From: a virus
Direction: 5' to 3' (one strand)
Length of the DNA stretch: 43,163 nt
Virus record (IMG/VR): IMGVR_UViG_3300011258_000170
Coordinates: 1-43,163 of that record
A program made the translations under genes and the position numbers. Positions 822-893 of this stretch are shown here, one piece after another (position 1 is the first letter of the stretch; each line of letters starts with the position of its first letter). The notes under the pieces were generated by a model. The model saw only the letters and a list, made by a program, of their open reading frames with translations, searched no databases and was not told the origin of the DNA.

Positions 822-893
822 ATGTGGACACAACCTCAAGCGACTGAAATGCGTTTTGGTTTTGAAGTAACAATGTATGTAATGAACAAGTAA
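822..893 (+). CDS. pqqA: PqqA-like PQQ precursor peptide
   Basis: A 23-codon gene. PqqA is the ribosomal peptide whose conserved Glu and Tyr are cross-linked by the radical SAM enzyme PqqE, with PqqD as carrier, and then cut and oxidised to pyrroloquinoline quinone. The peptide begins [11 protein letters not shown] and continues [12 protein letters not shown]. Glu15 and Tyr19 sit in the EVTxY core, at the same numbers as in the 23-residue Klebsiella PqqA as I recall it. Trp2, Pro5, Arg11 and Gly13 also match the family. AAGGAG at 809-814 lies 7 bases before the ATG. The gene stands alone between a TATAAT box and a strong terminator. No PqqB, C, D or E is in the window, so host enzymes would have to act on it (inference). 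It is too short for ordinary gene callers. Confidence 0.88.
   Translation: [23 protein letters not shown]

Follow-up and report, generated by a model that had tools for sequence, protein, structure and literature searches.

A stand-alone pqqA gene in a 43 kb viral contig as a probable auxiliary metabolic gene of phages infecting Methylophilaceae methylotrophs

The DNA analysed here, called the window, is the whole stretch of 43,163 nucleotides of IMG/VR virus record IMGVR_UViG_3300011258_000170, which carries phage polymerase, primase/helicase and virion genes and is therefore a true viral genome. Near its left end, the tail of a capsid gene is followed by an island made up of three genes, namely one of 93 aa, one that is weakly holin-like, and pqqA, which codes for the precursor peptide of the redox cofactor pyrroloquinoline quinone (PQQ), and then by the conserved gene p1031, for which ATG 1049 is the likely start rather than the listed TTG (Table 1). 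The peptide of the window covered the whole Pfam profile PF08042 (1-19) with 41.8 bits and an E value of 1e-10 against a curated cut-off of 21.1 bits, and the NCBIfam equivalog TIGR02107 (1-21/21) with 34.9 bits against a curated cut-off of 20 bits, so that both scores were about twice the cut-offs. As is typical of this family, in which ORFs of about 22-24 aa have Trp, Pro, Arg and Gly at fixed places, it has Trp2, Pro5, Arg11 and Gly13, while Glu15 and Tyr19 show the E-x-x-x-Y spacing of the residues that are fused into PQQ. A preliminary description of this DNA had named the same six residues and proposed a match to PqqA over the full length, and the profile search that it called for bears this out. 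The peptide was the single PqqA match on the contig's own record, a peptide identical to it is encoded by the loci L253 and L103, and the PHROGs collection contained no matching family.

Table 1. Features at the left end of the window, in order of position.
Feature	Position	Strand	Evidence
Major capsid protein C-terminus (..DPLGMWGSPGA*), contig cut inside gene	1..36	+	tail shared with L263-L275
Terminator after capsid gene; left edge of inserted island	69..98	+	terminator prediction
Island gene, function unassigned, 93 aa	125..406	+	tblastn matches in L253, L254, L258
Weakly holin-like island gene, 113 aa, below Pfam cut-off	390..731	+	
Probable -10 box TATAAT	771..776	+	conservation: TAYAAT in 9/9 aligned sequences
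Small inverted repeat TCAGCA-C-TGCTGA, 5' leader	784..796	+	kept in window's clade
Shine-Dalgarno AAGGAG, 7 nt 5' of ATG 822	809..814	+	sequence; in 9/9 aligned sequences
pqqA, 23-aa PQQ precursor peptide and TAA stop	822..893	+	translation, PqqA profiles
Intrinsic terminator of pqqA, UUCG loop	910..927	+	terminator prediction and compensated stem changes
Conserved gene 3' of island, synteny anchor (p1031)	1049..1594	+	ORF listed from TTG 1031

The gene also appears to be equipped with signals of its own. In an alignment of the window with eight other sequences of its clade, the -10 box, the inverted repeat, the Shine-Dalgarno sequence, the ORF and the terminator were all kept, and the strong Shine-Dalgarno and dedicated terminator of the preliminary description were both found. 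The terminator is composed of a stem, a TTCGG loop and a T-run. In some relatives its stem is altered on both sides with pairing kept (GGGGCTTCGGCCCC to GGGACTTCGGTCCC; GGGG/CCCC to GGGA/TCCC), which is how a functional hairpin should change. The -10 box was inferred from conservation only, because it was absent from the sites of a consensus scan and the -35 element is not clear. The pqqA of the window is thus a self-contained unit with a predicted promoter and, as far as these signals indicate, its own transcription unit. A general RNA structure in pqqA 5' leaders was also considered and set aside as too weak, with a mean z of -1.20 for viral leaders against -0.48 for controls, -0.85 against -0.32 for host leaders, and -0.49 for the window itself.

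The position of the gene was compared among relatives fetched by the downstream gene p1031, so that the loci were not chosen by a PqqA motif. In ten relatives (L253-L262, 67-79% identical in p1031) pqqA occupies the corresponding position, and each of the ten copies has Glu15 and Tyr19, which answers the preliminary description's call for a search of related phages at this site. In the sister clade (L263-L275, 64-69% identical in p1031), the capsid gene, whose end matches the capsid tail of the window, is followed directly by the p1031 homologue, and no PqqA was found in the records of this clade, most of which are fragments. The SAR11 phage HTVC023P likewise has its p1031 homologue directly 3' of a gene annotated as capsid protein and was not among the phages with PqqA in a tblastn search of the peptide, and tblastn found no copy of the 93-aa island gene in the pqqA-less clade loci. 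The simplest reading of this synteny is that the island was gained in the window's clade, while a loss in both the sister clade and HTVC023P would be less simple. The stretch before p1031 (window about 964-1048) was also observed to be a highly conserved structured leader that is kept in the pqqA-less clade; in five sequences, one pair of its stem GCTTATC/GATAAGC has both of its bases changed, and the leader gave no Rfam match.

Chance as the origin of the ORF is excluded, since the frame, Glu15 and Tyr19 are kept at the same site in the ten independently fetched relatives, and since synonymous sites among viral copies are near-saturated while the residues are kept. Over 138 distinct viral pqqA copies, pS was 0.56 and pN 0.064 (pN/pS 0.11), and over codons 11-19 pS was 0.68 and pN 0.024; many of these copies were fetched by a pattern fixing EVTMYxMN, so that the core is biased in this set. 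W2, P5, R11 and G13 were invariant in the 138 sequences, although the collecting search also required these residues. Four sets fetched by flanking genes, and thus free of the EVTMYxMN bias, gave similar values (pS 0.54, pN 0.069) with Glu15 and Tyr19 in 71/71 copies, where the copy scan required W, P, R and G in place as well as a partial match to the core of PqqA and may have overlooked strongly decayed copies. Since the sequences are related and unweighted, the value of pN/pS is indicative only; it points to strong purifying selection on viral pqqA. The profile scores, the retained Glu15 and Tyr19 and the conserved frame are each the opposite of what the preliminary description had named as evidence against PqqA, and 822-893 is confirmed as a real, full-length PqqA gene.

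The gene is not a one-off case. A tblastn search of the peptide against 50,697 phage records matched nine Methylophilales phage records (Venkman, MEP301, P19250A, MEP401, MEP402 and four of Melnitz), which differ in lineage, and a Manatee Spring podovirus. The only other matches were CAKLQF020000010.1 and CAKLQH020000055.1 (L008), both titled 'Acinetobacter phage MD-2021a'; these two contigs were rejected as phage cases, as the examined one has pqqA next to a pqqBCDE operon of chromosomal type and probably represents bacterial DNA deposited under a phage name. The OM43 phage isolates named as known in PMC13037479 are the same ones as those found with pqqA, so that no isolated methylophage is known to lack the gene. 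In the examined regions of the Methylophilales isolate records, pqqA is not annotated, any feature overlapping it being a hypothetical protein on the other strand, and the isolate papers checked contain no mention of PqqA as a phage gene.

Among viral contigs, a scan for the EVTMYxMN motif gave at least 120 loci, all genuine PqqA, and a second, non-overlapping pattern gave at least 120 further viral loci, of which about 50 among the matches listed were unlike the Methylophilaceae types. A pattern that required A, C or G as the second base of the codon right after Tyr19 found no viral PqqA, and many more viral PqqA were found when this requirement was moved one codon further. In all, pqqA was found in at least 316 viral loci, a number of loci rather than of distinct viruses, since some contigs contributed more than one. 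The flanks are diverse: 76 different flanking pairs occur in 113 loci, and grouping by a minimum of three shared families gave 22 gene-sharing groups. In stretches of limited length, pqqA was present in 10/25, 4/45, 31/80 and 26/80 members of the four flanking-gene sets, being absent from the sampled stretch in 41/45 relatives of MEP402 gp69. The MEP402-like loci L279-L282 were also observed to share a near-identical neighbour gene and to differ at the site itself, which has the pqqA cassette in some and a different gene in others; in L282 the neighbour gene is 95% identical and yet pqqA is missing there, a difference from L279-L281 that suggests that the cassette can be swapped as a module. 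Viral contigs such as L514 and L550 (within L484-L603) have PqqA types unlike those of Methylophilaceae and no pqqB-E in the stretch.

On the host side, the EVTMYxMN type in cellular genomes was almost confined to Methylophilaceae (judged by the titles of 80 loci listed of at least 120). PqqA was found in 80/80 sampled Methylophilaceae genomes, mostly in several copies (one to twelve), and PqqE above the cut-off in 168/187, some of these genomes being incomplete. The copies are extremely scattered on the chromosomes, with 12 in G002, 12 in G039 and 6 in G003. The peptide that is most frequent in phages is also the one most frequent in hosts. A few phage copies match host DNA beyond the ORF, such as P19250A with L208 (290 bases at 85%) and L103 with L222 (160 bases at 91%), which is consistent with exchange between phage and host, although binning of a phage contig into a host genome could also explain such matches. 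No convincing relative of a neighbouring phage protein was found in the 187 Methylophilaceae genomes, and no tRNA or Rfam match gave any clue to the host. The peptide type alone points to a Methylophilaceae methylotroph as the likely host, and the 'marine proteobacteria' of the preliminary description can be narrowed accordingly.

The substrate-only anatomy noted in the preliminary description was found to be general, as no pqqB, C, D or E was present in 477 viral loci with flanks of several kb, where pqqA nowhere forms part of a pqqABCDE operon, and no PqqE above the cut-off was found in 25 longer pqqA-bearing phage records. An operon context is not required for PqqA, since orphan copies exist in hosts. 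A host-type gene on a true viral genome that is held by purifying selection (pN/pS 0.11) has the attributes of an auxiliary metabolic gene. We consider it quite probable that the gene encodes a functional PqqA from a Methylophilaceae methylotroph, kept by selection as a tiny auxiliary metabolic gene that feeds the host's PQQ synthesis and methanol dehydrogenases; the host identity, the expression during infection, the maturation by host enzymes and the benefit to the phage are inferred. After being picked up from such a methylotroph and retained by selection, the self-contained unit would be transcribed by the phage during infection, host PqqE/PqqD would link Glu15 to Tyr19 of the phage peptide, and host PqqB/PqqC together with proteases would complete the cofactor. 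The extra substrate would thereby yield more PQQ, supply PQQ-dependent (XoxF/MxaF-type) methanol dehydrogenases and sustain energy and C1 flux while phage is being made. PqqA is consumed one-for-one for each PQQ, and its supply can therefore limit PQQ. In Methylovorus sp. MP688, which belongs to the Methylophilaceae and has five pqqA copies, PqqA availability is reported at second hand to be rate-determining for PQQ (PMC11317620, citing Ge 2015), and in another producer strain with five copies one orphan copy is strongly expressed (PMC9851590). In Methylobacterium extorquens, pqqA was reported to be dispensable, in a test that left the orphan copies out. Because the hosts already carry one to twelve copies, the need for a phage copy is not obvious.

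Several other explanations have to be weighed against this reading. The phage gene might be genuine and yet serve in another PQQ-using marine proteobacterium, as viral contigs also bear PqqA of other types and the sole annotated phage with a relative of the neighbour gene is one of SAR11; this is unlikely, given that the window's peptide type is that of Methylophilaceae chromosomes and of isolated Methylophilales phages and that the SAR11 phage HTVC023P itself lacks pqqA. A regulatory or alternative peptide, acting like orphan PqqA (e.g., in a lanthanide response) or as a signal, is also conceivable, because in M. extorquens two orphan pqqA copies were up-regulated fourfold with soluble lanthanide, for which the authors suggested an alternative role in uptake, and because Methylophilaceae retain many scattered copies. 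However, among viral copies the cross-linked residues do not vary and almost all core positions are fixed, as for a substrate of PqqE, and the identity of the commonest phage and host peptides speaks against it as well, so that we regard this as distinctly unlikely.

The carriage of the substrate without pqqB-E would also suit a decoy or competitive inhibitor, by which host PqqE/PqqD would be occupied and PQQ decreased. A decoy should have lost or altered Glu15 or Tyr19, whereas the copies fetched without the motif keep both, and the phage peptide matches the normal host substrate; the retention of the reactive residues and a host-type core makes a decoy less likely. Moreover, where PqqA supply is limiting, as reported for Methylovorus, more of it should raise PQQ, which favours a boost of PQQ over inhibition, and the decoy is accordingly judged very unlikely. 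It is extremely unlikely that pqqA is a passenger, in the sense of a piece of host DNA that was taken along by chance and does nothing for the phage. The patchiness among close relatives such as L282 and the few copies that match host DNA beyond the ORF (L004, L103) would agree with a passenger, but strong purifying selection, the retention of the gene's own -10 box, Shine-Dalgarno and terminator, and the many separate contexts among the 113 loci do not. The feeding of host PQQ synthesis, which the preliminary description had also put first, is thus the reading that we prefer.

The idea is not new, as opposed to the preliminary description, which knew of no described case. PqqA was reported in a Lake Baikal methylophage contig (VP_266) that also has methanol dehydrogenase, with the same proposed role of raising PQQ for Methylophilaceae methanol oxidation (PMC7678222), and viral pqqA is listed among sediment auxiliary metabolic genes in a reservoir study (PMC13188868). 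Compared by description, VP_266 is a T4-like phage with PqqA beside the phage methanol dehydrogenase, whereas the pqqA of the window is a solitary gene on a 43 kb contig that belongs to another lineage. Chromosomal pqqA of Methylovorus, Methylotenera and Methylophilus have the same peptide type and also occur as stand-alone copies away from pqqBCDE, while that of the window is part of a phage genome, where it falls between the capsid gene and a further gene of the structural region and forms a predicted transcription unit of its own. In Venkman, MEP301, P19250A, MEP401/402 and Melnitz, pqqA encodes a 73-91% identical peptide and likewise lies unannotated in gaps, at other insertion sites and in other phage lineages, and megablast of the first 12 kb of the window found none of these phages to be a nucleotide relative. 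The near-universal, stand-alone, unannotated pqqA of methylophage isolates and its occurrence in other host types seem to be unreported in the papers searched, which cover the literature in part.

More broadly, we lean slightly towards the view that a lone pqqA is a recurrent near-hallmark of phages of PQQ-dependent methylotrophs, which unrelated phage lineages acquired or relocated on many occasions and which escaped notice owing to its length of only 24 codons, and that phages may control a whole RiPP cofactor pathway via its consumable substrate alone. The case is a warning that very small auxiliary genes are missed by gene callers, and the pqqA type may be a possible host marker for unassigned contigs. 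Phage–host pairs exist, namely Venkman and Melnitz on H5P1 and MEP301 on its OM43 host. Coastal waters and freshwaters abound in phages of methylotrophs, and methanol oxidation there is carried by PQQ enzymes; a phage gene of 24 codons would be a direct lever on this process.
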